Assembly (NCBI GenBank): GCA_020850535.1
Contig: JADZEM010000063.1
Coordinates: forward strand, 1 to 64,000
Source: Chloroflexota bacterium
GTDB lineage: Bacteria; Chloroflexota; UBA6077; JACCZL01
Length of the DNA: 64,000 nucleotides
Direction: 5' to 3'
Below, in pieces: positions 5,635 to 22,253 of the stretch. Numbering within the stretch: the first letter of the stretch is position 1; every line of letters begins with the position of its first letter. A program made the translations under genes and the position numbers. Below the pieces are notes generated by a model. That model had not been told where the DNA came from and did no database searches. It worked only from the letters and a program-made list of their open reading frames with translations.

Positions 5635-7683
5635 TTGAAGCAGGCGAGACGAGTGGGTGCACGGGGTGCGGCGCGGCGCGCGCCGCTGGTCTGGCGGCTC
5701 GCGGTGGCGTTGCTGCTGGTGCTCGGGACGGTCAGCAGCCCGCTTGGGCGGGCCGAGACGACGTTCGCGGCGGGGCCGATGCCGGACCTGCGCTCGATCG
5801 TGCTGCAGGGCAGCGAGCTGCCCGGCTACGCGTCAGACGCCGGCCGCACGGCGCTGCAGGAGCGCCCCGACGGCACCGCCACGTACGACGCGGTCTTCCT
5901 GCGCCAGAGCGCTGCCACCGGCTCCGGGCCGGCCGAGATCCGGATGGCTGCCGCCCGCACCGCCTCCGGCAAGGCCAGCGCCCAGGCGCTCGTGGCGACC
6001 CGCGACGCCCTCCAGGCGGCCGGCTGGACCCTCCGCGACGTGCCGCTGCTCGGCGACGAGGCCATCGGCTTCGAGGCGAGCGGCACAGCGGCCGGCGGCC
6101 CGTCGAACGCGGGCTACGGCTACGTCTTCCGCTTCGGCCGCCACCTGATCGGCGCGGTCCTCTCCGGTCCGTCCGCCGCAACGTCCTTCGATCAGGCGCT
6201 CGGGTACGCCGTCCAGATGTCGGCGCGGCTCGACGCGATGCTGGCACTCGCGCCCGTCCCGGACCCCGATCCGGCCCCGGCCGGCACCGTGGTGGCGGCG
6301 GCCCCGCCGCCCGCCGCGAGCCAGCAGCCGTCAGTGGCCGCGAGCGCCGCCTCGGCCGCCAGCGCGCCGGCCTCTGGCGGGACCACGGCCAACGCGCGCT
6401 CCGGCGGGGCCGCCGAGGGTTCGACCGCCGCTGCCGTGCCGCCCTCGACCCGCCCGGCCGTCACGGCGGCGATGGTCTCCACGGACGTGCGGCTGGAGAA
6501 CGCCCCGGAGCTGCAGAACGGCTTCAAGATCGGCGGCTTCTCGGGGCTGGTCGCGCCCGACCCGAGCGGGACCGTCTTCTTCACCACCACCGACCGTGGC
6601 CCGAACGGCGAGATCAAGGTGGACGGGAAGAAGGAGATCGCCTTCCCGCTGCCTCACTACACGCCGCGCATCCTGAAGCTCAAGCTGGAGAGCGGCAAGC
6701 TCCAGGTCGCGGACCAGATCACCCTCAAGACGCCGAACGGCTACACCGATCCGGTGACGAAGACCCAGGATATCACCGGCTTGCCGGCCTTCGACGGCGC
6801 GGGTGAGGAAGCGTACTCGCCGGACGGCAAAGAGGCGTACGGCACCGACCCGTACGGCGTGGACACCGAGGGCATCGCCTACGATTCGCGTGACGGCAGC
6901 TTCTGGCTGGGCGACGAGTACGGCCCGAGCATCGTGCACGTGGCGGCGGACGGCACCCTGCTGATGCGGATCACGCCGAAGGGGCTGGGGCTGTCGATGC
7001 CCGGCGTGGCCGTGCGCGAGCTGCTGCCGGAGACCTTCCGCAAGCGCAAGCCGAATCGTGGCTTCGAGGGCATCTCGATCTCGCCAGACGGCACGCGCCT
7101 CTTCGTGATGCTCCAGAGCCCGCTGCTCTACCCTGACGCGAAGGCCGGCGAAGCATCCCGCCACATCCGGGTGGCCGTCTTCGATACGTCCGACGGGGAC
7201 AACCCGAAGCTGGCCGGCATCTACATCTACCAGTCGCAGTCGGCATCAGAAGTTGGCGCAAAAGACCAGGACGAGATCAAGATCGGTGATATCGCAGCCG
7301 TGAGCCGGACCCGCTTCCTGGTCGGCGAGCGCGACAGCGCCGAGGGCGGCAGCCACAAGAAGGTCTACCTCGTCGATATCGAGGGCGCGACGGACATTAC
7401 CGACAAGGACAAGATCGACGGCAAGACCGTCGAGCAGGCCAGCGAGTCCGATCTCAAGAAGGCCGGCGTCGCCTACTTGAAGAAGTCGATGGTGGTGGAT
7501 CTGGCCAGGCTCGGGTTCAGCCCCGACAAGTTCGAGGGGCTGGCGTTCATCGATCCGACCACCCTCGCCGTCGTCAACGACAACGACTTCGGCGTCTCGG
7601 CCATCGACTCGCGGGGCAAGGTGGTCCGCGAAGGGCAGGCGCCCAGGCTGGTGATCGTCCGCGTGCCAGAACCGATCCAGTAG
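5635..7683 (+). CDS. Exported esterase-like/phytase-family protein
   Basis: Secreted or membrane-anchored protein of about 682 aa. The C-terminal two thirds resemble the 'esterase-like activity of phytase' beta-propeller family: FKIGGFSGLVAPDPSG, TTTDRGPNGE, NRGFEGISISPDG and KFEGLAFIDP are the typical repeat blades, and many Asp residues could bind calcium. I place the start at the TTG at 5635, preceded by GGAGAGG with 6-bp spacing; this gives a basic N-terminus followed by a hydrophobic export signal (VWRLAVALLLVLGTV). An in-frame ATG at 5371 would overlap the divergent permease gene and the promoter. An N-terminal domain of unknown function (about residues 40-215) is joined by an Ala/Pro/Ser linker (about 220-280) to the propeller. 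The substrate is unknown; phosphoester hydrolysis is possible but not shown. Confidence 0.8.
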   Translation: MKQARRVGARGAARRAPLVWRLAVALLLVLGTVSSPLGRAETTFAAGPMPDLRSIVLQGSELPGYASDAGRTALQERPDGTATYDAVFLRQSAATGSGPAEIRMAAARTASGKASAQALVATRDALQAAGWTLRDVPLLGDEAIGFEASGTAAGGPSNAGYGYVFRFGRHLIGAVLSGPSAATSFDQALGYAVQMSARLDAMLALAPVPDPDPAPAGTVVAAAPPPAASQQPSVAASAASAASAPASGGTTANARSGGAAEGSTAAAVPPSTRPAVTAAMVSTDVRLENAPELQNGFKIGGFSGLVAPDPSGTVFFTTTDRGPNGEIKVDGKKEIAFPLPHYTPRILKLKLESGKLQVADQITLKTPNGYTDPVTKTQDITGLPAFDGAGEEAYSPDGKEAYGTDPYGVDTEGIAYDSRDGSFWLGDEYGPSIVHVAADGTLLMRITPKGLGLSMPGVAVRELLPETFRKRKPNRGFEGISISPDGTRLFVMLQSPLLYPDAKAGEASRHIRVAVFDTSDGDNPKLAGIYIYQSQSASEVGAKDQDEIKIGDIAAVSRTRFLVGERDSAEGGSHKKVYLVDIEGATDITDKDKIDGKTVEQASESDLKKAGVAYLKKSMVVDLARLGFSPDKFEGLAFIDPTTLAVVNDNDFGVSAIDSRGKVVREGQAPRLVIVRVPEPIQ

Positions 7684-7742
7684 CCCGATACTAGCGCAGG
7701 CTCCGGCTGGAGTCTGCGCGGATCGGCTCACTGGAGGTGCGC

Positions 7743-8126
7743 GTGGCCCGCGTCCTGATCATTGAGGACGAGCCCGAGATTCTCGATCTCCTCGGCGACC
7801 TGCTCACGCTCGAAGGGTACGACGTTCATCAGCTGCGGCGGATACCGCTGGGGCTCGATCAGGTGCGGGTGCTCGCGCCAAACGCCATCGTCCTCGACCT
7901 CAGGCTGCCGGGGCTTGGCGGCATGGAGCTGGTGCGGCTGCTGGCAGCGGACCGGCAGTTGCGCCGCACGCCGGTCGTCATCTGCTCGGGGGCGGACGAC
8001 CTCACCAGCATCTACCGGCAGGAGCTGACCAGCCTCGGCTGCGAGATCGTGCCGAAGCCGTTCGAGCTGGAAGACCTGATCGGCAGCGTGCGGCGGGCCG
8101 TCTGGAGCAGCCAGAGCTGCTGGTGA
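7743..8126 (+). CDS. Stand-alone response-regulator receiver protein
   Basis: Single REC domain of about 127 aa with no output domain. It has the acidic pair (IIEDE near the N-terminus), the phospho-acceptor Asp in IVLDLRLPG, the switch Ser in VVICSG and the conserved Lys in PKPFE. The GTG at 7743 follows GGAGG at 5-bp spacing and gives VARVLIIEDE; a GTG six bases upstream overlaps the ribosome-binding site. No histidine kinase is encoded nearby, so it is an orphan (CheY/Spo0F-like) that must signal by protein contact. It starts 59 bp after the phytase-like gene and may be co-transcribed with it. Confidence 0.85.
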   Translation: MARVLIIEDEPEILDLLGDLLTLEGYDVHQLRRIPLGLDQVRVLAPNAIVLDLRLPGLGGMELVRLLAADRQLRRTPVVICSGADDLTSIYRQELTSLGCEIVPKPFELEDLIGSVRRAVWSSQSCW

Positions 8127-12633: not shown

Positions 12634-13578
12634 ATGCCTCGCCCCGAGTACGTCCCGATCCAGTGCAAATCGGCCCTCAACCGCGTCCAGGGGATGCCGT
12701 TCAAATGGTCGTTGAACCCGTACGCGGGGTGCGTGCACGCCTGTGTGTACTGCTATGCCCGCTCGCACTATCAACTGGCGGGGCACGGTGATGCCGGGCG
12801 GGAGTTCGAGACCCGGATCCTGGTCAAGTCCAACATCGCGGAGGTGCTGCGGCGCGAGCTGCGGCGGCCGTCGTGGTCGTTCGAGCTGGTGTCGCTCGGG
12901 ACGGTGACGGACTGCTACCAGCCGGCCGAAGGGCGCTTCCGAGTCACGCGGGCCTGCCTGGAGACCCTGGCCGACTGTGCCAACCCGCTCGGCATGGTGA
13001 CGAAGTCGCCGCTGGTCCTCCGCGACCTGGACATCCTGGCCCCGCTGGCCCGGCAGGCGAAGGTCAGGATCTTCTTCACCATCACGACCGTCGATCTGGA
13101 CCTCTGGCGCACCATCGAGCCGGGCACGGCAAACCCGTTCAAGCGGCTCGCGGTGATGCAGCGGCTCAACGAGGCAGGCGTGCCGGCGGGGGTGCTGCTC
13201 GCGCCGATCCTGCCCGGGCTGACGGACTCGTCGGCCTCGCTGGAGGCGGTCGCGCAGGCGGCCGCCGAGCACCGAGCGGCCTTTCTCGGCACCAGCACCT
13301 TGCGGCTTGCGCCCGTCGTCAAGGAACAGTACCTCGGGTTTGTGGACCGCGAGCACCCGGATCTGCTGCCTCGCTACGAGCGCGCCTACCCGGGCCGCGA
13401 GGCGCCCCAGGCGTACCAGCAGGCGCTGGATGCGCGCGTCGAACGGATCCGCGAGCGCTACGGCTTCGCGGAGCGCTCGATGCGGAAGGCTGGCCTCAGC
13501 TCGGCGGCCGAGCCGCTGCCTGCGGACCCGCTCCCGCGGCGCGTCGGGCCGCAACTGCTGCTCCCGATGATCTCGTAG
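12634..13578 (+). CDS. Radical SAM protein, Rv2578c/SplB-like family
   Basis: Iron-sulfur S-adenosylmethionine radical enzyme of 314 aa, related to the spore photoproduct lyase-like COG1533 proteins. The 4Fe-4S-binding cluster CVHACVYC (C-x3-C-x2-C) follows the conserved N-terminal block KSALNRVQGMPFKWSLNPYA. The reaction is unknown for this subfamily. The ATG at 12634 is kept because the conserved block begins directly after it, although GGAGG lies only 1 bp upstream. The last ~97 codons are duplicated at 21844-22134 with six differences, all silent, so this copy appears to be the functional one. Confidence 0.85.
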   Translation: MPRPEYVPIQCKSALNRVQGMPFKWSLNPYAGCVHACVYCYARSHYQLAGHGDAGREFETRILVKSNIAEVLRRELRRPSWSFELVSLGTVTDCYQPAEGRFRVTRACLETLADCANPLGMVTKSPLVLRDLDILAPLARQAKVRIFFTITTVDLDLWRTIEPGTANPFKRLAVMQRLNEAGVPAGVLLAPILPGLTDSSASLEAVAQAAAEHRAAFLGTSTLRLAPVVKEQYLGFVDREHPDLLPRYERAYPGREAPQAYQQALDARVERIRERYGFAERSMRKAGLSSAAEPLPADPLPRRVGPQLLLPMIS

Positions 13579-13697
13579 CCGGCCGGCACGTCGGGGTTCT
13601 ATCTGCTGCTGGAGGAGTGCGCACGGGCCTGGCGGGCTCGCGCGCGACCGCTGTCCCAGACATCTGGGTTCGCAAGCCGGTGTGGGCGCTCGCCAGC
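13288..13697. repeat. 410-bp direct repeat, copy A (left end of catabolic island)
   Basis: This segment covers the 3' end of the radical SAM gene and the last 33 codons of the convergent hydroxyacid dehydrogenase gene. It recurs in direct orientation at 21844-22253 (offset 8556 bp) with about seven substitutions. Recombination between the copies would remove 8556 bp. Confidence 0.9.
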
Positions 13698-14615
13698 CAG
13701 GAAACGGTCGATGTTGTCGAGCGTCAACGGGGTCTTGTACTGCTCGCTCTCGAAAGAACCACCGGCCACATGGGGCGTCGCGACGACGTTGTCGAGTGCG
13801 AGCAACGGATTGTCCGGTGGAGTCGGCTCGACCTCGAAGGTGTCCAGTCCGGCCGCCAGGATGCGACGCTCGGCGAGCGCTCGGTAGAGGGCCGACTCGT
13901 CGATGACTCGCCCACGGGCGGCATTGATCAGGATGGCCGTTGGCTTCATCAGGCTCAGCTCACGCTCGCCGATCATACGGTCGGTGTCCCTGGTGTGCGG
14001 CACGCACAGCACCACGATGTCTGACTCTCGGAGCAGGGTGTCAAGGGACACGGAGCGGATGCCCGCCAGAATCATGCCGTCCGGTCGGGAGGTCCGCTGG
14101 TAGGAGATGGAGTGGGCGCCGAAGCCTGCCACGCGTTTCGCGACGTGCAGGCCGATGTGCCCCAGCCCGATGATACCAACCGTCTTGCCGGCCAGTTCAT
14201 ACGGTGGTCGTGGCGGATCGACACGGTCCCAGATGCCCATCCGCATGTTGATGATGTCGCGCGCCGCATTTCGCAGGCAGAGTAACGTGAGCATCAGAAT
14301 GTGGTCGGCGACCGACGACGCATTCATCCCGACATTCAGCGTCAGCAGGATGCCGTGATCGCTGAGCGCCTCGACATCAAAATGGTCCGCTCCGGAGCCA
14401 CCTTTGACCAGCAACTGGAGGTTCGGAAGCTGCTCGATCATCTCGCGGCTGAGCACGTACGGGCCAGACCGACCCGACAGGAGGATCTCGCAATCCCGAA
14501 TCTGGTCGATCAAGACATCAGCCGCGGTCGTCTCGGTCCGCACGAACACGATATCGTGGCCGACGAAGCGTCCGTCTACCGCCTCTCGATAGCGCTCGTC
14601 AATCGCGAGACGCAT
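13599..14615 (-). CDS. D-isomer-specific 2-hydroxyacid dehydrogenase
   Basis: NAD(P)-dependent oxidoreductase of 338 aa (phosphoglycerate dehydrogenase/glyoxylate-hydroxypyruvate reductase family). The nucleotide-binding motif GIIGLGHIG is central. The catalytic Arg (INAARGRVID), Glu (FEVEPTPPDNPL) and His (ATPHVAGGSFES) are all present. The ATG at 14615 has a GGAGGGGAGG ribosome-binding site; upstream in-frame codons would overlap the transporter gene and are rejected. It lies 85 bp after the binding-protein gene and is probably co-transcribed from the Crp-type promoter at 16433-16475. The C-terminal 33 codons lie inside direct repeat copy A. In context it probably reduces a 2-ketoacid formed from the imported sugar acid. 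Confidence 0.88.
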   Translation of the reverse strand: MRLAIDERYREAVDGRFVGHDIVFVRTETTAADVLIDQIRDCEILLSGRSGPYVLSREMIEQLPNLQLLVKGGSGADHFDVEALSDHGILLTLNVGMNASSVADHILMLTLLCLRNAARDIINMRMGIWDRVDPPRPPYELAGKTVGIIGLGHIGLHVAKRVAGFGAHSISYQRTSRPDGMILAGIRSVSLDTLLRESDIVVLCVPHTRDTDRMIGERELSLMKPTAILINAARGRVIDESALYRALAERRILAAGLDTFEVEPTPPDNPLLALDNVVATPHVAGGSFESEQYKTPLTLDNIDRFLAGERPHRLANPDVWDSGRARARQARAHSSSSR

Positions 14616-14700
14616 GGCACCCTCCCCTCCTGCACACACGGGGCAGTCCCGCTCGCGCCAGGCAAGCGGGACCACGACGTGAGCGTCGGCGACGCTACAG

Positions 14701-16392
14701 TCAGTCCTGAAGCTGCATCTCGTTGAACTTCCACAGGTTGTCGGTTCGCGGCGTCCAGACGAGCTTCGCCGACGCACCGTGAATGTAGTCCAGCCCGAAG
14801 AGCGGCAGCACCCAGTAGTTGTCGTAGGCGGTCTTCCACAGCTCTTCGTACAACTTCCGCCGCTCGTCGCCACTGGCAGCAGATGCCTGGGCCATCTTCT
14901 TGGTGAATGCCTCGTCGCAGAAGTGGGAGAAGCGACCTTCACAGCCGTAGTAGGCGTCCATCACGCGCGATGAATCGAACGTCGGGTTGGACGCTGCCGT
15001 CATGAACGTGTCGGATCGCTTCTCGCCCGGCTTGACTGCGAACAGCGTCTCCCGCCACTGGCCGGCTTCCATGATCCGAGGCGTCATCTTGAGGCCGGTG
15101 CTCGCACTCACCGCGTTCGCCACCGCCTCGCCCAGTTCCGAGATGCGGGCGAAGTTCGCCTCACGGATCACCAGTTCGAGTGCCGTGCCACTTGCCCCGG
15201 CCTCCTGCACCAGTTGCTTCGCCTTTGCAGCATCAACCGGATACGGCTTGAGGGTCGGGCTGGAGCCGAACGACTGGCCGCGCACCATCTGACCATTCGC
15301 GCTGGTGGAGAAACCCGGGTAGAACGCCTCCATCAGCATGTTGGTGTCAATGGCGTACGCAATGGCCTGGCGAACACGGATGTCCTTCAGCGCCGGGTGC
15401 TCGGTGTTGAGGCGGATACCGACCATCTCGGTGGTCTTCTCGACCACCGACTTCGGCATCTGCTTCGCCATCTCTGTCGGGATCGAGAATGCCAGTTGCG
15501 CCTCGCCAGCCTGGACCATTGAAGCGCGGACGCTAGCTTCCTTGCGGGGAATGATCTTGACCTCGGCGATAGTCGGCTTTGGCGTGCCCCAGTACTCGGG
15601 GTTGGCCTTGAGCGTGATGTAGCTGCCACGCTGCCAGTCACTCAGGGAGTACGGGCCGGTGCCGACGGCCGTCACCGACATCTTGTCTTCCGACGTCTCC
15701 TTGAGCCACTTCGCCGGCGCGATCTTGAACTTGATGAGCTTATTCGGCAGGATCGGGTCCGGAGCAGTGGTCGTGAGATCGACGGTGTAGTCATCCACCT
15801 TCGTGGCCGGAAAGCCGAGCGTCGAATAGTCGCCGTTGCAGCGGTTCGTACGCGTCGACGGGTTCAGCTCATGGTCGACGGTCTCCACCACCGAGTCGGC
15901 ATTCATCGGCTCACCGTTCTGGAACTTGATCCCCTGCCGAAGTTTGAAGCGCCAGGTCGTGGGGCTGGTCTGTTGCCAGCTCTCAGCGAGTAGCCCGACG
16001 ATCTTGCCGTCGTTGTCGATACTGGTCAACGATTCGTAGATGTTGCGGACGGTGAAGTCGGCAAGGAGGGAGCAGCCCATCTTCGGCATCAAGCCGTTCT
16101 CAGGCTCGCCTTCGACGGCGATGACCAGTTGGCCCCTCGGGGCGGCTGCTGGCTTGGCCGCTTCGGCTGGCTTCGCGGCGGCGGGAGCCACCGTGGGCTT
16201 CGCCGCCTCGGCGGGTTTCGCGGCCTCGGCAGACTTCGCCACCTCGGTCGGCCTGGCCGGCGAGACCGCCTCGGCGGGTTTCGCGGGCGCCGTTGTTGCG
16301 GCGGGTGGTGTGGGCTGAGCGCAGCCGGTCACCATTGTCGCGACCAGCGCCGCAAGAACAACGCGTCGAGCGCGCGGCGAGAACAGTCGCAT
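14701..16392 (-). CDS. ABC transporter substrate-binding lipoprotein (family 5)
   Basis: Solute-binding lipoprotein of 563 aa, DppA/OppA fold. The start at 16392 (GGGAGAGG ribosome-binding site) gives a classical Sec/lipobox leader MRLFSPRARRVVLAALVATM with lipobox VTGC, Cys24. A tether built of repeated A-K-P-A-E-A units (about residues 25-95) precedes the folded domain at RGQLVIAVEGEPENG. Longer in-frame readings add unconvincing residues. The permeases at 16542-18423 are its likely partners. A Crp-type site with a matching -10 box sits 68 bp upstream of the start. In this locus the ligand is more likely a sugar acid or oligosaccharide than a peptide (inference from neighbours). Confidence 0.9.
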   Translation of the reverse strand: MRLFSPRARRVVLAALVATMVTGCAQPTPPAATTAPAKPAEAVSPARPTEVAKSAEAAKPAEAAKPTVAPAAAKPAEAAKPAAAPRGQLVIAVEGEPENGLMPKMGCSLLADFTVRNIYESLTSIDNDGKIVGLLAESWQQTSPTTWRFKLRQGIKFQNGEPMNADSVVETVDHELNPSTRTNRCNGDYSTLGFPATKVDDYTVDLTTTAPDPILPNKLIKFKIAPAKWLKETSEDKMSVTAVGTGPYSLSDWQRGSYITLKANPEYWGTPKPTIAEVKIIPRKEASVRASMVQAGEAQLAFSIPTEMAKQMPKSVVEKTTEMVGIRLNTEHPALKDIRVRQAIAYAIDTNMLMEAFYPGFSTSANGQMVRGQSFGSSPTLKPYPVDAAKAKQLVQEAGASGTALELVIREANFARISELGEAVANAVSASTGLKMTPRIMEAGQWRETLFAVKPGEKRSDTFMTAASNPTFDSSRVMDAYYGCEGRFSHFCDEAFTKKMAQASAASGDERRKLYEELWKTAYDNYWVLPLFGLDYIHGASAKLVWTPRTDNLWKFNEMQLQD

Positions 16393-16432
16393 CTTGCCTC
16401 TCCCTTGAAGCGAGGTTTCGGTTCCTGCCGTG

Positions 16433-16475
16433 AGCATAGGGGGGGTCGGGGACGATTTCTGTCGGCCGGCCGACA
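16433..16475 (-). promoter_or_regulatory. Crp-type promoter 1 (binding protein and dehydrogenase)
   Basis: The perfect palindrome TGTCG-GCCGGC-CGACA lies at 16460-16475. A -10 box TATGCT (minus strand 16438-16433) follows after 21 bp. With +1 at 16426 the site centre is at -41.5, the class II Crp activator position. No -35 box is present, as expected for an activator-dependent promoter. Confidence 0.65.
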
Positions 16476-16541
16476 ACTCTGACGAGGAGGTCTGCCGTGA
16501 GTTGACGGTTCCTGTCGGGGCTGGCGTGGCCAGCGCGGCGT

Positions 16542-17489
16542 TCAGACGTTCAGCCAGCGCCATCGCTGGACGGGATCGCTGACGGCACGCAGCCACGTCG
16601 AGAGCAGGTTCACCGAGAGCGTCGTGAGGAAGATGGCGAAGCCCGGAAAGCCGACGAGCCACCAGGCCGTCGTGATGTACTCACGGCCCTGAGAGAGCAT
16701 CAAGCCCCAGGACGATTCTGGCGGCTGGATGCCGACGCCCAGGAAGCTGAGGGCCGCTTCCGAGAGCATCGCGCGAGCAAACTCCAGCGTGCCCAGCACC
16801 AGGATCGGCGAGAGAAGGTTGGGCAGCATATGTCGCAGCATCAGCCGCCCGTCGCTCGCGCCGACGACCCGTGCCGCTTCGATGTACGGCGACTCTCGGA
16901 CCGACAGCGCCATCGCCCGCGTCACCCGGGCCATGACCATCCACCGCGTCAGGGCCAGGACGATGATCAGGTTCTGGAAGCCCGGCCCGGCCGTGTAGAG
17001 CACGATCAGCGCGAGCAGCAGCGACGGGAACCCCATCTGAATGTCGACGAGGCGCATCAGCAGATCGTCGACCTTCCCGCGATAGAAGCCGGCAACCAGC
17101 CCGACTGTGACGCCAATCAGACCTGAGCAGATCACCGTGGCCAGCCCGACGCTCAGCGACACCCGCGCGCCAACCAGCACGCGAGACAGCACGTCACGTC
17201 CCAGTTGATCGGTGCCGAGCAGGTGGAACGATCCATCCCGCGCAAAGCCGGGCGCCGAGTTACGCAGAAGCAGACTCTGGGCGTTGGGTGCAGGGAGGAC
17301 GCAGACGGACACCAGCAGGTCGGCGCTGGCGCACATGGCCAGGAGGACGATGAGAAAGACGGCTGCCAGGAGGCTGATCGGCTCACGGACGAGCGCGCGG
17401 AGCAACACGGACAGCCGAGCGGCCAGACTGGCGCCTTCGAGGCGCGGGGCTGAGGACGGCTCAGTCAGGATCTCGGCTGTCGGATTCAT
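16542..17489 (-). CDS. ABC transporter permease, DppC/OppC family
   Basis: Inner-membrane permease of 315 aa. A charged N-terminus leads to the span LLAAVFLIVLLAMCASADLL. GTDQLGRDVLSRVLVGARV is the family signature, and the EAA loop is AARVVGASDGRLMLRHMLPN. The ATG at 17489 has GGAGG 9 bp upstream and lies 16 bp after the stop of the DppB-type gene, so the two form one transcription unit. It partners the binding protein at 14701-16392, which has its own promoter. No ATPase subunit is encoded in the island. Confidence 0.9.
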   Translation of the reverse strand: MNPTAEILTEPSSAPRLEGASLAARLSVLLRALVREPISLLAAVFLIVLLAMCASADLLVSVCVLPAPNAQSLLLRNSAPGFARDGSFHLLGTDQLGRDVLSRVLVGARVSLSVGLATVICSGLIGVTVGLVAGFYRGKVDDLLMRLVDIQMGFPSLLLALIVLYTAGPGFQNLIIVLALTRWMVMARVTRAMALSVRESPYIEAARVVGASDGRLMLRHMLPNLLSPILVLGTLEFARAMLSEAALSFLGVGIQPPESSWGLMLSQGREYITTAWWLVGFPGFAIFLTTLSVNLLSTWLRAVSDPVQRWRWLNV

Positions 17490-17505
17490 CGTCGCGCAGC
17501 CTCCA

Positions 17506-18423
17506 TCACTTGTACCGAATGCGCGGGTCGAGGTAGGCGTACGTCAGGTCGACTGCCAGATTGATCGCCACGACCAGCGTGGCCACGATCAAGACGTCGG
17601 CCTGAATCAGCGGGAAGTCCCGACGCTCGATGGCGCTGATCGCCAGCAATCCGATCCCTGGCCAGCCGAAGATCACCTCGATCACGACGGACCCGTTGAC
17701 GAGGCCCGCGATCTCGTCGCCGGCGAGCGTGATGACCGGGATGGCCGCGTTGCGCAACACGTGACGATAGACGGTGATCCGCTCCGGCAGGCCCTTTGAG
17801 CGCGCCGTCACCACGTACGCCTTGCTCAATTCGTCCAGCATGCAGGACCGCACCACCTGGGCGATCCGGCCGATGTGGTTGACGGCCAGGGCCAGGACTG
17901 GCAGGACGAGATACTCCACGCCGCCGTAGCCAGACGTCTTGAACCATCCAAGCTGGACGGCAAACAGAATGATCAACATCAGCGCGAGCCAGAAAGTCGG
18001 CATCGAGACGCCGACGATGGCCAGCGTCGTGGTCAGCCGGTCGACGAACGAGCGCGGGCTAAACGCCGACATCGCGCCCATCGGCACCGCCACAACCAGC
18101 GAGAAGCCAATCACTGAGACGGCCAGGAGCAGCGTGGCCGGAATCCGCTCCAGCACCAGTTGTCGGGCTGGCACCCGCTGCCAGATCGAGAGACCAAAGT
18201 CGCCGCGCACGAGGTCTCCGGCGAAGCCCAGGAACTGCACGTACAGCGGGTTGTCCAGGCCAAGCTCAGCCCGCAGGCTCTGGTACTGCTCCTCGGTGGC
18301 CTCAATGGGGAGCATCAGTCGCGCGGGATCGCCGACGGTGCGCGTCACCACGAAGATGACGATTGCCAGCCCCAGCAGCACAAACACCGAGTGCACGAGG
18401 CGCCGAGCAATGTAGGCAGTCAT
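17506..18423 (-). CDS. ABC transporter permease, DppB/OppB family
   Basis: Inner-membrane permease of 305 aa with the standard N-terminus MTAYIARRLVHSVFVLLGL (basic stretch then first span) and the conserved C-terminus DLTYAYLDPRIRYK. The EAA loop is around ARSKGLPERITVYRHVLRN. The ATG at 18423 has AAGGAG upstream. It is the first gene of the permease pair and is preceded by the second Crp-type site (18508-18529). Confidence 0.9.
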   Translation of the reverse strand: MTAYIARRLVHSVFVLLGLAIVIFVVTRTVGDPARLMLPIEATEEQYQSLRAELGLDNPLYVQFLGFAGDLVRGDFGLSIWQRVPARQLVLERIPATLLLAVSVIGFSLVVAVPMGAMSAFSPRSFVDRLTTTLAIVGVSMPTFWLALMLIILFAVQLGWFKTSGYGGVEYLVLPVLALAVNHIGRIAQVVRSCMLDELSKAYVVTARSKGLPERITVYRHVLRNAAIPVITLAGDEIAGLVNGSVVIEVIFGWPGIGLLAISAIERRDFPLIQADVLIVATLVVAINLAVDLTYAYLDPRIRYK

Positions 18424-18482
18424 ACGGACGTAGTGGCTCCTTGACCACAGCCGAGGCTCGTCGTGGCCCCAGCGACCAGCCC

Positions 18483-18529
18483 AGCATACGGGTACCGGTC
18501 AGCGTCCGTTTGTCGTCGCGCCGACAAAC
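18483..18529 (-). promoter_or_regulatory. Crp-type promoter 2 (permease operon)
   Basis: TGTCG-TCGCGC-CGACA at 18511-18526 extends to an outer palindrome GTTTGTCG...CGACAAAC (18508-18529). A -10 box TATGCT (minus strand 18488-18483), identical to that of promoter 1, follows after 22 bp. The site centre is at about -42.5. Confidence 0.65.
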
Positions 18530-18604
18530 ACGCGGATACGTCGAATTAGCGCCTGCCGACCCGCTGGATGCCTCCTGGCGGCGCCGCCCCGGAGGCTCAG
18601 GCGA

Positions 18605-19309
18605 TCACGGGCGGAGCTCGGCGCACTCCTGCAAGCCGACCCACTCCTGAATGACGATGGCCCGTGACCTGAGGGCCAGGAATCCCTCAGATTCCAGACG
18701 GTCAAGCTCACTGGTAACCGTCTGCCTCGTCATGCCGCAGAGGCGGCTCAACTGCTCGTGCGTCACCCGAATGTCGATGGACGTTGCATGGTCCAGCGCC
18801 GCTCCGCTGCGCCGCGCCAGATAGACCAGCGACGCCGCCACCCGTCGCCGAGCCGAGGTCCCGATGAGGCTCGTCTTCATCGTCTGCTGCTCAATGCCCC
18901 GATGGAGCGCGCTGTTGAGCAGGGCCAGCGTGATCTCGGGCCGGTCGACGATGAGCGTGAACAGCACATCTCTTGGGACCACCCACAGCTCGATATCGTC
19001 GAGGGCGCGCATGCTTCGCGCCCGCTCGTGCCCGAGCAGGATCTCCGCGATGCCGAACACCTCGTGTGGATGACGGATCGAGTGTCCGATCTCGCGCCCA
19101 GACTCCGAGATGCTCAGCAGCTCGACACGGCCGGACTTGACGGCGTAGGCGGCCGTGGGCTGCTCGCCCTGAAGGAAGATAAACGCGTTGCGTCGATACG
19201 GGCGTAGCTGCCCAAATTCGGCGAAGCTCTCGTAGGCGACCTGTCGCCACACCTCGACGGGCCGGACAAGGCTGTCCCTCACCGGACGTAGCGCCCTCGT
19301 GGCGTTCAC
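18605..19309 (-). CDS. Crp/Fnr-family transcription regulator
   Basis: DNA-binding regulator of 234 aa: an N-terminal cyclic-nucleotide-binding-like beta-barrel (about residues 25-140), a dimerisation helix, and a C-terminal winged helix (about 165-225). The ligand pocket keeps an E-R-A-R-S element comparable to the phosphate-binding R-S of CRP, but no Cys cluster of the Fnr type. The recognition helix reads CGMTRQTVTSELDRLE: relative to E. coli CRP the Arg180 equivalent is kept, while Glu181 becomes Gln and Arg185 becomes Ser. Those residues read the inner base pairs of TGTGA, and the local sites are TGTCG. The start is GTG at 19309 with GGGAGGG at 6-bp spacing. It probably activates the three operons of the island. 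Confidence 0.85.
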   Translation of the reverse strand: MNATRALRPVRDSLVRPVEVWRQVAYESFAEFGQLRPYRRNAFIFLQGEQPTAAYAVKSGRVELLSISESGREIGHSIRHPHEVFGIAEILLGHERARSMRALDDIELWVVPRDVLFTLIVDRPEITLALLNSALHRGIEQQTMKTSLIGTSARRRVAASLVYLARRSGAALDHATSIDIRVTHEQLSRLCGMTRQTVTSELDRLESEGFLALRSRAIVIQEWVGLQECAELRP

Positions 19310-19351
19310 GCCGTCCCTCCCTGGTGCTGCGTCTCCTGTGCCACCGGCGTT

Positions 19352-19394
19352 TGTCGGCCGGCCGACAGAACGCCCCCCACAGCGGCCCTACGAT
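19352..19394 (+). promoter_or_regulatory. Crp-type promoter 3 (dehydratase operon)
   Basis: TGTCG-GCCGGC-CGACA at 19352-19367, identical in sequence to site 1, is followed after exactly 21 bp by TACGAT (19389-19394). With +1 at 19401 the site centre is at -41.5. It faces the gene starting at 19507. No -10 box was found at the mirrored distance toward the divergent regulator gene. Confidence 0.6.
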
Positions 19395-19506
19395 TATCGT
19401 CCACGGCGGACGTTATTCCCAGGAGCGTGCCGGCGAGCCAGTGCCGGCCAACGAGGGCTCCCACGCTGCTTGGCAACCGACCGCAGCGACGCGGAGGAGG
19501 ATAGTC

Positions 19507-20649
19507 ATGAAAGTTGACCGCATCGAGACACTCACCTTCTGGGGTGAGTGGAAGAACTGGGTCTTCGTCAAAGTTTCGACTGACGATGGCCTGTACGGCT
19601 GGGGCGAGGCCTCGCTCGCGGGCGCCGTCAAGGCGGTCGAGAGCGCCGTCCACGAACTGGGAGCGGTCCTGATCGGGGAGGATCCCGGCGGCGTCGAGCG
19701 TCACTGGCTCCGGATGTACCACGCCTGGCGCTGGCGGGGCGGTGCGATCCAGACGACGGCCCAGGCCGCGCTCGACATCGCCCTCTGGGATCTTGAAGGC
19801 AAGCGCCTCGGCGTGCCGTCATACCGGCTGCTGGGTGGGCCATACCGGGATCGCATCCGTGCATACGCCAGCCACTGGCTCATCGGCGCGGATACCCCTG
19901 AGAAGGTGCGCGAGCAGGTCCGCGAGGTCAAGCGGCGCGGCTTCGATGCCTTCAAGTGGAGTCCGTTCGATCAGCGGAGCCTCCGCGAGAATGAGAACGC
20001 CGCCATCGAGAAGGCGCGGCAGTTGATGGAGGTCGCGCGCGATGAAGCTGGTCCGGAGATGGATATCTTTGTCGAGTGCGGCGAGAAACTCTCACTGCGA
20101 ACGGCCCCAATCGCGGCCCAGGCGTTTCTGCCATACCGTCCTGGCTGGTTTGAGGAGCCAATCCCCTGCGAGAACGCGAAGGCGATGGTCGAACTCCAGC
20201 ACACGCTTCCCGTCCCCATCGCCACCGGCGAGCGTCTCGTCACGCGGTGGGAATACCGCGAGTTACTCGAAGGGCAGGGTTGCCGGATCATTCAGCCGGA
20301 CCTGACCCACTGCTCGGGCATCACCGAGGTCAAGCGCATTTGCTCCATGGCGGACACCTACTACATCAGCGTGGCGCCCCATAACTCGGCGGGTCCCATC
20401 GGCACGCTCGCGGCTCTCAACCTGGCTGCCGCGATTCCGAACTTCTTCATCCTCGAACAGATGGAGGAGGAGCGGAGCATGCGGGATGCCATCTGTACTG
20501 TGCCGCTGAAGTTCGAGAACGGGTCGTTCGAGCTGCCGACGGCACCGGGCCTAGGCACCGACCTCAAGCTCGACGTGCTGCTCGAATCCGAGGCTCGGGC
20601 GGCGCGAGCCACGCCGTTGCGTGGCGGCACCGAGCGAATCTGGCGCTAA
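19507..20649 (+). CDS. Enolase-superfamily sugar-acid dehydratase (mandelate racemase/muconate lactonizing family)
   Basis: Mg-dependent enzyme of 380 aa that would abstract the proton alpha to a carboxylate, typically dehydrating an aldonic or aldaric acid. The ATG at 19507 has GGAGGAGG upstream and gives MKVDRIETLTF. The N-terminal capping domain precedes the barrel. Metal ligands are Glu in DIFVECGEK, Glu in WFEEPIPCEN and Glu in IATGERLV. The general acid/base side has Asp in QPDLTHCSG and His in SVAPHNSAG. At the strand that carries KxK or the D-x-H of D-galactonate dehydratase this protein has FKWSPFD and VECGEK, so the exact reaction is unclear. It is first in an operon with the malate/lactate-type dehydrogenase. 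Confidence 0.85.
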   Translation: MKVDRIETLTFWGEWKNWVFVKVSTDDGLYGWGEASLAGAVKAVESAVHELGAVLIGEDPGGVERHWLRMYHAWRWRGGAIQTTAQAALDIALWDLEGKRLGVPSYRLLGGPYRDRIRAYASHWLIGADTPEKVREQVREVKRRGFDAFKWSPFDQRSLRENENAAIEKARQLMEVARDEAGPEMDIFVECGEKLSLRTAPIAAQAFLPYRPGWFEEPIPCENAKAMVELQHTLPVPIATGERLVTRWEYRELLEGQGCRIIQPDLTHCSGITEVKRICSMADTYYISVAPHNSAGPIGTLAALNLAAAIPNFFILEQMEEERSMRDAICTVPLKFENGSFELPTAPGLGTDLKLDVLLESEARAARATPLRGGTERIWR

Positions 20650-20680
20650 CCCACCGTCTACAGAGCCACACAGGAGGAGG

Positions 20681-21763
20681 ATGCCCGTGCCCACGTTCAC
20701 TGCCGAGCGACTCGGCGCATTTATCGAGACGGTCCTGACCCGTGCTGGGCTGCAGGCCGACGAGGCTCGGCACTGCGCCGAGGCGGCAGTGTTCGCAAAC
20801 CTGCGTGGCACCGAGACGCATGGAATCGTCTACATCGTCCCCCGCATGCTCAAGAGCCTTCAGGAGGGGAAGACAACGCCAGGTGCTCGCCACGTGGTGG
20901 TCCGCGAGAGCGGCGGGTCAGCCTTGCTCAAGGCAAACGGACAGGCCGGGCCGATGCTCGGCTACGAGGCGATGCAGGTCGCGGTGAAGAAGGCACGCGA
21001 GCAGGGCGTCGGAGCGGTTGTCACGATCAACGGTGGCCCGCTCGGCATGCTCGGCTACTTCGCGGATCTGGCTGCTCGGCAGGGACTGATCGGCATGGTG
21101 GCGGCCAACACGTCGCCGAATGTGGCCCCCTACGGGAGCAGCACGCCGGTATTCGGCACGAACCCGTTTGCCTACGCTGCGCCTGCGGCATCCGCACCGA
21201 CGCTCCTCCTAGACATCGCCACGAGCGTGGCGGCGTCCGGCAAACTGGCCAGCGCTCGTCGTCGACAGGAGCAGTTGCCCGAGGGCTGGATCGTCGACGC
21301 CGATGGCGCCTGGATCACAGACCCGATGCGGTCGGGCGATGGGGCGATGCTGGCATTTGGTGGGCACAAAGGGTCAGGCATTGCGCTGTTGGTACATGTG
21401 CTGACTGGCATGCTGGGGGGCACAACGGTCGGCGGCGAGGTTACCCACGAGAACTCTGATCCCGATGTTCGGGGGCAGTCGGTCTTCTACCTCGCCATCG
21501 ACCCGGAGCATTTCGCGTCGCGTGAGGTGTTCGAGCGCCTGGCCGACCGCCAGATCGAATACATCCAGGCAGCACGGCCACTGCCAGGCTTCGAAGAGGT
21601 GCTGTCCCCCGGGATGCGCGGCGCCCGCACGGCGGCAGGCCGGTCAAGCCAGGGCATCCCGGTACCAGAGCCGGATTGGGCGGCCGTTCTGAAGGCGGTG
21701 CAGGCGGCAGGACTGCCCGTAGACGAGATAGTTGATGAGGTCACTGTGGCTCCTGCATCGTAG
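20681..21763 (+). CDS. Malate/L-lactate dehydrogenase family (Ldh_2) oxidoreductase
   Basis: NAD(P)-dependent dehydrogenase of about 360 aa, of the Ldh_2 family that acts on malate, L-lactate, ureidoglycolate or L-gulonate-type 2-hydroxyacids and is structurally unrelated to classical LDH. Signatures are GTETHGIVYIVPRML (catalytic His), APYGSSTPVFGTNP, and LAFGGHKGSGIALLVHVL near the C-terminus. It follows the dehydratase by 31 bp. The ATG at 20681 touches AGGAGGAGG; the GTG at 20687 has better spacing and may be the true start. In context it oxidises or reduces an intermediate of the sugar-acid pathway. Confidence 0.87.
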   Translation: MPVPTFTAERLGAFIETVLTRAGLQADEARHCAEAAVFANLRGTETHGIVYIVPRMLKSLQEGKTTPGARHVVVRESGGSALLKANGQAGPMLGYEAMQVAVKKAREQGVGAVVTINGGPLGMLGYFADLAARQGLIGMVAANTSPNVAPYGSSTPVFGTNPFAYAAPAASAPTLLLDIATSVAASGKLASARRRQEQLPEGWIVDADGAWITDPMRSGDGAMLAFGGHKGSGIALLVHVLTGMLGGTTVGGEVTHENSDPDVRGQSVFYLAIDPEHFASREVFERLADRQIEYIQAARPLPGFEEVLSPGMRGARTAAGRSSQGIPVPEPDWAAVLKAVQAAGLPVDEIVDEVTVAPAS

Positions 21764-21811: not shown

Positions 21812-22134
21812 CTGGCCGACTGTGCCAACCCGCTCGGCACGGCGGCACCAGCACCTTGCGGCTTGCGCCCGTCGTCAAGGAGCAGTACCTCGGGTTCGTG
21901 GACCGCGAGCACCCGGATCTGCTGCCTCGCTACGAGCGCGCCTACCCGGGCCGCGAGGCGCCCCAGGCGTACCAGCAGGCGCTGGATGCACGCGTCGAGC
22001 GGATCCGCGAGCGCTACGGCTTCGCGGAGCGCTCGATGCGGAAGGCTGGCCTCAGCTCGGCGGCCGAGCCGCTGCCTGCGGATCCGCTCCCGCGGCGCGT
22101 CGGGCCGCAACTGCTGCTTCCGATGATCTCGTAG
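21812..22134 (+). pseudogene. Truncated second copy of the radical SAM gene
   Basis: 21812-21839 matches 12967-12994 of the radical SAM gene, then the match jumps to 13288 and runs to the stop codon (21844-22134), so about 290 bp are missing internally and the 5' half is absent. The iron-sulfur motif is lost and it cannot be functional. The six base differences in the coding part are all silent, showing that this sequence diverged while still under selection. Confidence 0.85.
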
Positions 22135-22253
22135 CCGGCCGGCACGTCGGGGTTCTATCTGCTGCTGGAGGAGTGCGCACGGGCCTGGCAGGCTCGCGCG
22201 CGACCGCTGTCCCAGACATCTGGGTTCGCAAGCCGGTGTGGGCGCTCGCCAGC
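21844..22253. repeat. 410-bp direct repeat, copy B (right end of catabolic island)
   Basis: Direct repeat of 13288-13697. It includes 3' radical SAM sequence, the 20-bp intergenic spacer, and a fragment (22155-22253) of the 3' end of the hydroxyacid dehydrogenase gene. It stops 9 bp short of the stop codon of the SGNH hydrolase gene. With 21764-21811, in which I recognise nothing, it fills the 499-bp gap. Confidence 0.9.

Follow-up and report, generated by a model that had tools for sequence, protein, structure and literature searches.

Three members of the Crp/Fnr superfamily are among the closest described systems to the locus considered here. In Escherichia coli CRP, base contacts are made by the side chains of Arg180, Glu181, and Arg185 (PMC12531629), and the operator, TGTGA-N6-TCACA, is a palindrome of 16 bp whose half-sites are spaced like those of the sites described below. 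The CO sensor CooA has the operator consensus TGTCGGCnnGCCGACA (PMC545781). NtcA, the 2-oxoglutarate-sensing member of the family in cyanobacteria, uses the corresponding pocket for 2-oxoglutarate. The locus examined here lies in a 64-kb window (the whole stretch of DNA that was analyzed) from a Chloroflexota bacterium, and consists of transport and acid-sugar genes surrounding a Crp/Fnr-type gene. The results described below indicate that this adjacent regulator very probably turns on the cluster via three sites that carry the CooA operator word.

Gene content and promoter geometry of the cluster

The coordinates of the cluster genes, sites, and predicted promoter elements are collected in Table 1. 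The initial annotation placed the palindromes ahead of a binding-protein gene, a permease operon, and a dehydratase operon, and these gene identities are borne out by Pfam domains. The regulator gene sits between sites 2 and 3. No ABC ATPase gene is present in the cluster, while many are found elsewhere in the genome; the one nearest to the ATPase of the Neorhizobium galegae cluster discussed below is on contig C175 (62% identity). The cluster is flanked by a 411-bp direct repeat whose copies are 98% identical, which fits the insertion of a transferred cassette. We infer that positions 13599-21763 form a self-contained cassette for the uptake and catabolism of what is probably a sugar-acid-like compound.

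Table 1. Features of the cluster (positions in the window; promoter elements are predictions).
Feature	Position	Strand	Basis or remark
Direct repeat, first copy	13287-13697		flanks cluster
D-2-hydroxyacid dehydrogenase, 3' in binding-protein operon	13599..14618	-	2-Hacid_dh_C; same place after binding protein in N. galegae
Family-5 solute-binding protein	14701..16392	-	SBP_bac_5
Predicted -10 TATGCT, binding-protein promoter	16433..16438	-	spacing to site 1; start expected near 16426
Site 1, TGTCGGCCGGCCGACA	16460..16475	-	exact match; upstream of binding-protein operon; -10 TATGCT 21 bp on
Dpp/Opp-type ABC permease 2	16542..17489	-	BPD_transp_1
Dpp/Opp-type ABC permease 1	17506..18423	-	BPD_transp_1
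Predicted -10 TATGCT, permease promoter	18483..18488	-	spacing to site 2
Site 2, TGTCGGCGCGACGACA (read towards permeases)	18511..18526	-	exact match; -10 TATGCT 22 bp on
Crp/Fnr-family regulator, 234 aa	18605..19309	-	Pfam cNMP_binding and HTH_Crp_2; fold model
Site 3, TGTCGGCCGGCCGACA, between divergent regulator and dehydratase genes	19352..19367	.	exact match; predicted dual role
Predicted -10 TACGAT, dehydratase promoter	19389..19394	+	21 bp on from site 3
Predicted regulator -10 GATAAT	19393..19398	-	overlaps opposing dehydratase -10; nested likewise in N. galegae
Enolase-superfamily acid-sugar dehydratase, near galactonate dehydratase	19507..20649	+	MR_MLE domains; PRK14017 302 bits, cut-off 311
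Ldh2-type dehydrogenase, dehydratase operon	20681..21763	+	PF02615
Direct repeat, second copy	21843-22253		flanks cluster

The three TGTCG-N6-CGACA sites reported in the initial annotation were confirmed to the base by an exact-match search of the window, which returned these three and no fourth. The first TAnnnT element in the direction of the downstream gene begins 21, 22, and 21 bp past sites 1, 2, and 3, respectively, reproducing the -10 boxes proposed earlier and placing the site centers at -41.5, -42.5, and -41.5 relative to them, which is the position of class II Crp-type activators. A recognizable -35 hexamer at the usual spacing is absent from all three promoters, as expected if these promoters are activator-dependent. 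An alternative is that the bound regulator blocks the -35 regions and so represses all three operons until an inducer releases it. Repression from such positions is possible, as the sites overlap those of the -35 elements, and the effect predicted for site 3 on the regulator's own gene is itself repression. However, the lack of -35 hexamers is what would be expected of activator-dependent promoters, and a spacing of ~21-22 bp is held both here and at loci selected by the operator word elsewhere, including coo operons whose CooA is an activator. Repression of the operons is therefore considered unlikely.

The possibility that the sites are chance palindromes of a GC-rich genome was evaluated using motif counts. 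Pentamer counts predict 0.14 matches per 64 kb, so that three or more sites have a probability of 4e-4 in the window as a whole and of 4e-8 within the 2.9-kb segment that holds them. Furthermore, when the gap between the pentamers is varied from 0 to 20, N6 gives three matches in the window and no other length more than one. The occurrence of TAnnnT at these distances from three of three sites has a chance probability of ~5e-7 (a figure uncorrected for the -10 having been looked for in the initial annotation). The initial annotation suggested a genome scan for the motif. The count of the bare pentamer motif is uninformative, as the 7.65-Mb genome contains 11 exact sites compared with ~18 expected from the window's dinucleotides, and relatives without the regulator contain 0-11; in contrast, a class II -10 is seen only at the three local sites, the eight exact sites elsewhere in the genome being flanked by no TAnnnT at 21-22 bp in either direction. 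Consequently, the case rests on position and clustering, the longer operator word, promoter geometry, and comparison between genomes. Chance would account for a motif that is genome-wide no commoner than expected, but it is extremely unlikely to account for the clustering and the -10 geometry, or for the association of word with helix and the recurrence of the same three site positions in N. galegae described below. One site elsewhere (L012:7210) points towards a CARDB-like gene and is followed 21 bp on by GATGCT, but by no TAnnnT; we do not count it as part of the regulon. Separately, the two sites of a pair on L013 have in common a different downstream element, 43 bp on.

The regulator and its recognition helix

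The presence of a Crp/Fnr gene in the middle of the cluster is supported by both domain and structure predictions. The protein matches PF00027 (60.2 bits, cut-off 27.5) and PF13545 (51.3 bits, cut-off 27), placing it in the Crp/Fnr superfamily, and the predicted fold (mean pLDDT 84.5) retrieves Mycobacterium tuberculosis CRP, GlxR, and NtcA in a Foldseek search with TM-scores of ~0.8. The recognition helix, TRQTVTSELDRL, contains R195, Q196, T197, and S200. These are the residues anticipated in the initial annotation, wherein the equivalent of CRP Arg180 is kept while Gln replaces Glu181 and Ser replaces Arg185. The recognition helix of CooA, SRQTTSTALNSL (structure 1ft9), likewise carries Arg-Gln-Thr at the positions occupied by Arg-Glu-Thr in CRP. 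The CooA consensus is reproduced letter for letter by sites 1 and 3; as judged by this identity, the TGTCG word of the cluster is the CooA operator, until now known from the CO sensor CooA.

The genome encodes several further Crp/Fnr-type proteins, and it is conceivable that the sites serve one of these unlinked paralogues, or a regulator of a different family, with the adjacent Crp gene being incidental. The five others with a full helix-turn-helix match have R-A-S, R-P-T, R-P-R, L-S-T, and P-E-T at the recognition positions, and an R-Q helix was found in none of the paralogues whose helix is readable. This absence, the link between helix and word across genomes, and the joint conservation of the regulator and the site positions in N. 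galegae make a different regulator very unlikely. A protein search of genome_contigs with the regulator returned no relative. Additionally, a survey of 400 genomes from the phylum revealed no regulator orthologue, and searches at the level of order, class, and phylum returned only homologues of 26-31% identity.

The relationship between operator word and helix was probed in 84,980 species genomes with a query made up of TTGTCGGCnnGCCGACA, 21 or 22 bases, and TAnnnT, a search that uses DNA only and contains no protein information. The scan yielded 50 loci, and a Crp/Fnr-type gene, often divergent and adjacent, is present within a stretch no longer than 8 kb at 30 of these, a yield that is uncalibrated against shuffled words. 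Recognition helices are readable at 29 of the Crp/Fnr loci, and 28 of these are R-Q-T while the remaining one is R-S-T; R-Q-T occurs in none of 46 homologues chosen without the word, a background drawn from one phylum. The difference is significant by Fisher's test (p = 9e-20) and remains so when the Roseateles/Pelomonas group is excluded (17 of 18; p = 1e-14), with both p-values inflated by kinship. In a tree built by a quick method the R-Q-T proteins cluster, yet in several separate places; the labels of two rows are wrong (L026 as RQT and L108 as other), making the count of changes approximate. The R-Q-T proteins are thus partly related, and the 28 of 29 are not 28 independent events. Together with CooA, which combines the same word with R-Q-T, these results support the earlier proposal that the change in the helix matches the change from TGTGA to TGTCG.

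The loci recovered by the scan are varied. Positive controls include cooS operons and a hydrogenase-type operon adjoining a CooA-type regulator. Other loci contain a tripartite tricarboxylate transporter (a Rhodospirillales bacterium), a sulfotransferase and DASS anion transporter (a Myxococcota bacterium), an ABC ATPase (Cohnella), and DUF2332 genes (Roseateles/Pelomonas). Of the proteins from the scan, that of Cohnella is closest to the regulator (32% identity; the quick tree groups the two with 97% support), and its own promoter carries a site. Across 51 sites, the spacing is 21 bp in 39 cases and 22 bp in 12; at Crp-linked loci outside of the Roseateles/Pelomonas group the corresponding ratio is 14 to 4.

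The Neorhizobium galegae cluster

All seven genes of the cluster are found together on N. galegae plasmid pHAMBI540a (L155; an unannotated record) with identities of 38-62%: dehydratase 62%, permeases 62% and 58%, Ldh2 51%, binding protein 51%, D-2-hydroxyacid dehydrogenase 41%, and regulator 38%. Among the matches listed from the plasmid collection, the N. galegae dehydratase stands at 62% compared with at most 41% for the next, and the binding protein at 51% compared with at most 37%. The N. galegae regulator helix, SRQTVTTILGEM, is also R-Q-T. Sites occur at the same three promoters: TGTCGGCCATGTGACA before the permeases, with TATGAT 20 bp on; TGTCGCCCAGACGACG before the dehydratase, with TATTAT 22 bp on; and TGTCATCTGCTTGACA before the binding protein, with no clear -10. 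Two exact TGTCR-N6-YGACA matches are present where 0.025 are expected per 18.6 kb, and both fall in two gaps of ~100 bp (P ~4e-8). The N. galegae cluster differs from that of the window in its partly rearranged gene order, its less perfect sites, and the addition of an ABC ATPase and a DHDPS/aldolase-type gene. By its shared genes, R-Q-T regulator, and site positions, it is an orthologous cluster in another phylum.

This arrangement was not seen around other relatives. Seven genomes of the phylum encode dehydratase orthologues with 54-66% identity, and the surrounding stretches contain no match to the regulator, transporter, or Ldh2 and no exact site. Two further weak matches, to dehydratase and hydroxyacid dehydrogenase, were seen in these stretches. 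Regulator matches on rhizobial plasmids (~30% identity) were also considered; these have R-Q-W helices and no such sites.

Proposed mechanism and comparison with known systems

The local regulon under the adjacent Crp/Fnr protein that was proposed in the initial annotation is supported by the CooA precedent, the word-to-helix test, and the N. galegae cluster. In all likelihood, the locus is a cassette with its own Crp/Fnr regulator, which would combine CooA-type DNA specificity with a different sensor and act by class II activation with probable autolimitation. Binding of the regulator to the sites and activation of the operons are predicted from the sequence features described above. First, effector binding would allow the dimer to occupy the three sites at -41.5 or -42.5, over the missing -35 elements. 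Next, the bound dimer would activate the binding-protein, permease, and dehydratase operons from these class II positions. The same binding at site 3 would probably limit transcription of the regulator's own gene. Counted from the predicted start of the regulator transcript, site 3 falls at approximately +20 to +35, and the nesting is alike in N. galegae, where TTGACG-N16-GATAAT is followed by a site at +18 to +33. It is therefore predicted that a single site serves both to activate the dehydratase operon and to restrain the regulator, and this position suggests negative autoregulation at the divergent site in both clusters.

The sensor domain offers some insight into the signal. The phosphate-binding cassette, FGIAEILLGHERARS, has Ile, Arg, and Ala at the positions of CRP Glu72, Arg82, and Ser83, a set that departs from the one expected for cAMP binding; by these residues the pocket is not a standard cAMP pocket. 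The equivalent of Arg82 and an Arg of the C-helix are kept. The contacts to 2-oxoglutarate in NtcA comprise the FG motif, Arg88, Arg129, and Glu134. The regulator keeps the FG motif and both Arg equivalents, of which the one in the C-helix is widespread in the family, and lacks a counterpart of Glu134. The pocket appears to resemble the acid pocket of NtcA more closely than that of CRP, and the most economical guess is that the effector is an acid intermediate of the pathway. The enzymes and transporter of the cassette should help to identify it.

On balance, we lean slightly towards a broader reading, in which the R-Q-T helix and TGTCGGCnnGCCGACA form a reusable specificity module that occurs across Crp/Fnr lineages with unrelated sensors (heme in CooA, acid- or anion-type pockets, and the Roseateles group). 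The regulator would then be one of a number of unrecognized, dedicated Crp-type activators of carboxylate or anion uptake cassettes, which answer to an acid intermediate rather than cAMP and move between phyla with their cassettes. The recognition rule is testable in both directions, from R-Q-T helix to TGTCGGC operator within the Crp/Fnr family, and would allow operators to be predicted for uncharacterized Crp/Fnr regulators. Moreover, the operator of CooA alone does not mark CO regulation, and the findings suggest a role for Crp-type proteins as catabolic activators dedicated to acid-uptake cassettes.

Compared with CooA from Rhodospirillum and Desulfovibrio, the regulator has the same operator word and R-Q-T helix, and its class II spacing is that of the coo loci from the scan. 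Given this shared word and similar helix, the regulator could be thought to be CooA itself, acting as the heme CO sensor of an unusual regulon. However, the regulator has no His at the position aligned with the heme ligand His77 of CooA, and the loop matching CRP residues 72-82, which is deleted in CooA, is present (PMC12937710). CooA is linked to CO dehydrogenase, whereas the neighbors here are transport and acid-sugar genes unrelated to CO, and no match to TIGR01702 (the anaerobic CO dehydrogenase CooS) was found in the genome. By these features the regulator is not CooA, and a CO-sensing role for it is barely credible.

The cassette regulator, with its sensor distinct from that of CooA, shares with E. 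coli CRP its fold, class II position, and recognition Arg180. In contrast to CRP, it has Gln for Glu181, Ser for Arg185, and Ile for the ribose-contacting Glu; furthermore, CRP is a global regulator with a TGTGA operator, whereas the cluster regulator is local and its operator is TGTCG. The best sequence match among solved structures is NtcA (~25% identity), although the regulator scores 57.8 bits against the NtcA profile, with a cut-off of 245. Both proteins have the FG motif and a hydrophobic residue in place of the CRP Glu, and both keep the Arg82 equivalent and the C-helix Arg. NtcA differs in its recognition helix (TRVTVTRLL) and in its function, which is nitrogen control.

Direct repeat around the cluster

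The whole cluster, predicted to serve uptake and catabolism of a sugar-acid-like compound, is flanked by the two copies of a 411-bp direct repeat. The gene spanning 12634-13578 has its 3' end within this repeat. From the sequence, it looks as if the cassette had been inserted beside this gene, with duplication.

Coordinates of the direct repeat and of further exact sites in the same genome
Feature	Position	Remark
411-bp direct repeat	13287-13697 and 21843-22253	copies 98.3% identical
TGTCGACCGGCCGACA	L012:7210-7225	contig C32
two TGTCGGCnnGCCGACA words	L013:6272-6287 and 6792-6807	contig C143

Sites elsewhere in the genome

The single L012 site has GATGCT 21 bp on, lies 57 bp upstream of the gene for a CARDB-like secreted protein, and may represent a weak fourth target. 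Genes resembling D-2-hydroxyacid dehydrogenase and the enolase superfamily lie in the neighbourhood.

The L013 copies lie at a distance of 520 bp from each other, and both have CTGGGATACTG 43 bp further on. The pair lies close to genes for two small paralogous proteins (6814-7365 and 7527-8006) and is adjoined by an FMN-type 2-hydroxyacid dehydrogenase-like gene.

Related regulators in other genomes

A Chloroflexi group of Crp-type regulators (scan loci L095, L102, L115, L116, and L123) carries an FGEM[GS] sensor motif and an R-Q-T or R-S-T helix, with a site near the regulator gene; the downstream proteins tested gave zero matches in Pfam and NCBIfam. On rhizobial plasmids (L156, L157, and L158), a Crp-type regulator with an R-Q-W helix belongs to a conserved unit with a divergent ABC transporter, a HEAT-repeat protein, a ferredoxin, and a fumarate-reductase-like flavoprotein, and this unit contains no TGTCGGC sites.

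In Roseateles/Pelomonas relatives (L076, L080, L081, L083, L101, L107, L110, L121, L124, and L125), a DUF2332-type gene (DUF2332 identified in L076) is divergent from an R-Q-T Crp-type gene, and the site is followed 21 bp on by an invariant CCTATGCT. Together, regulator gene, site, and DUF2332-type gene form a predicted, uncharacterised Crp-type regulon.
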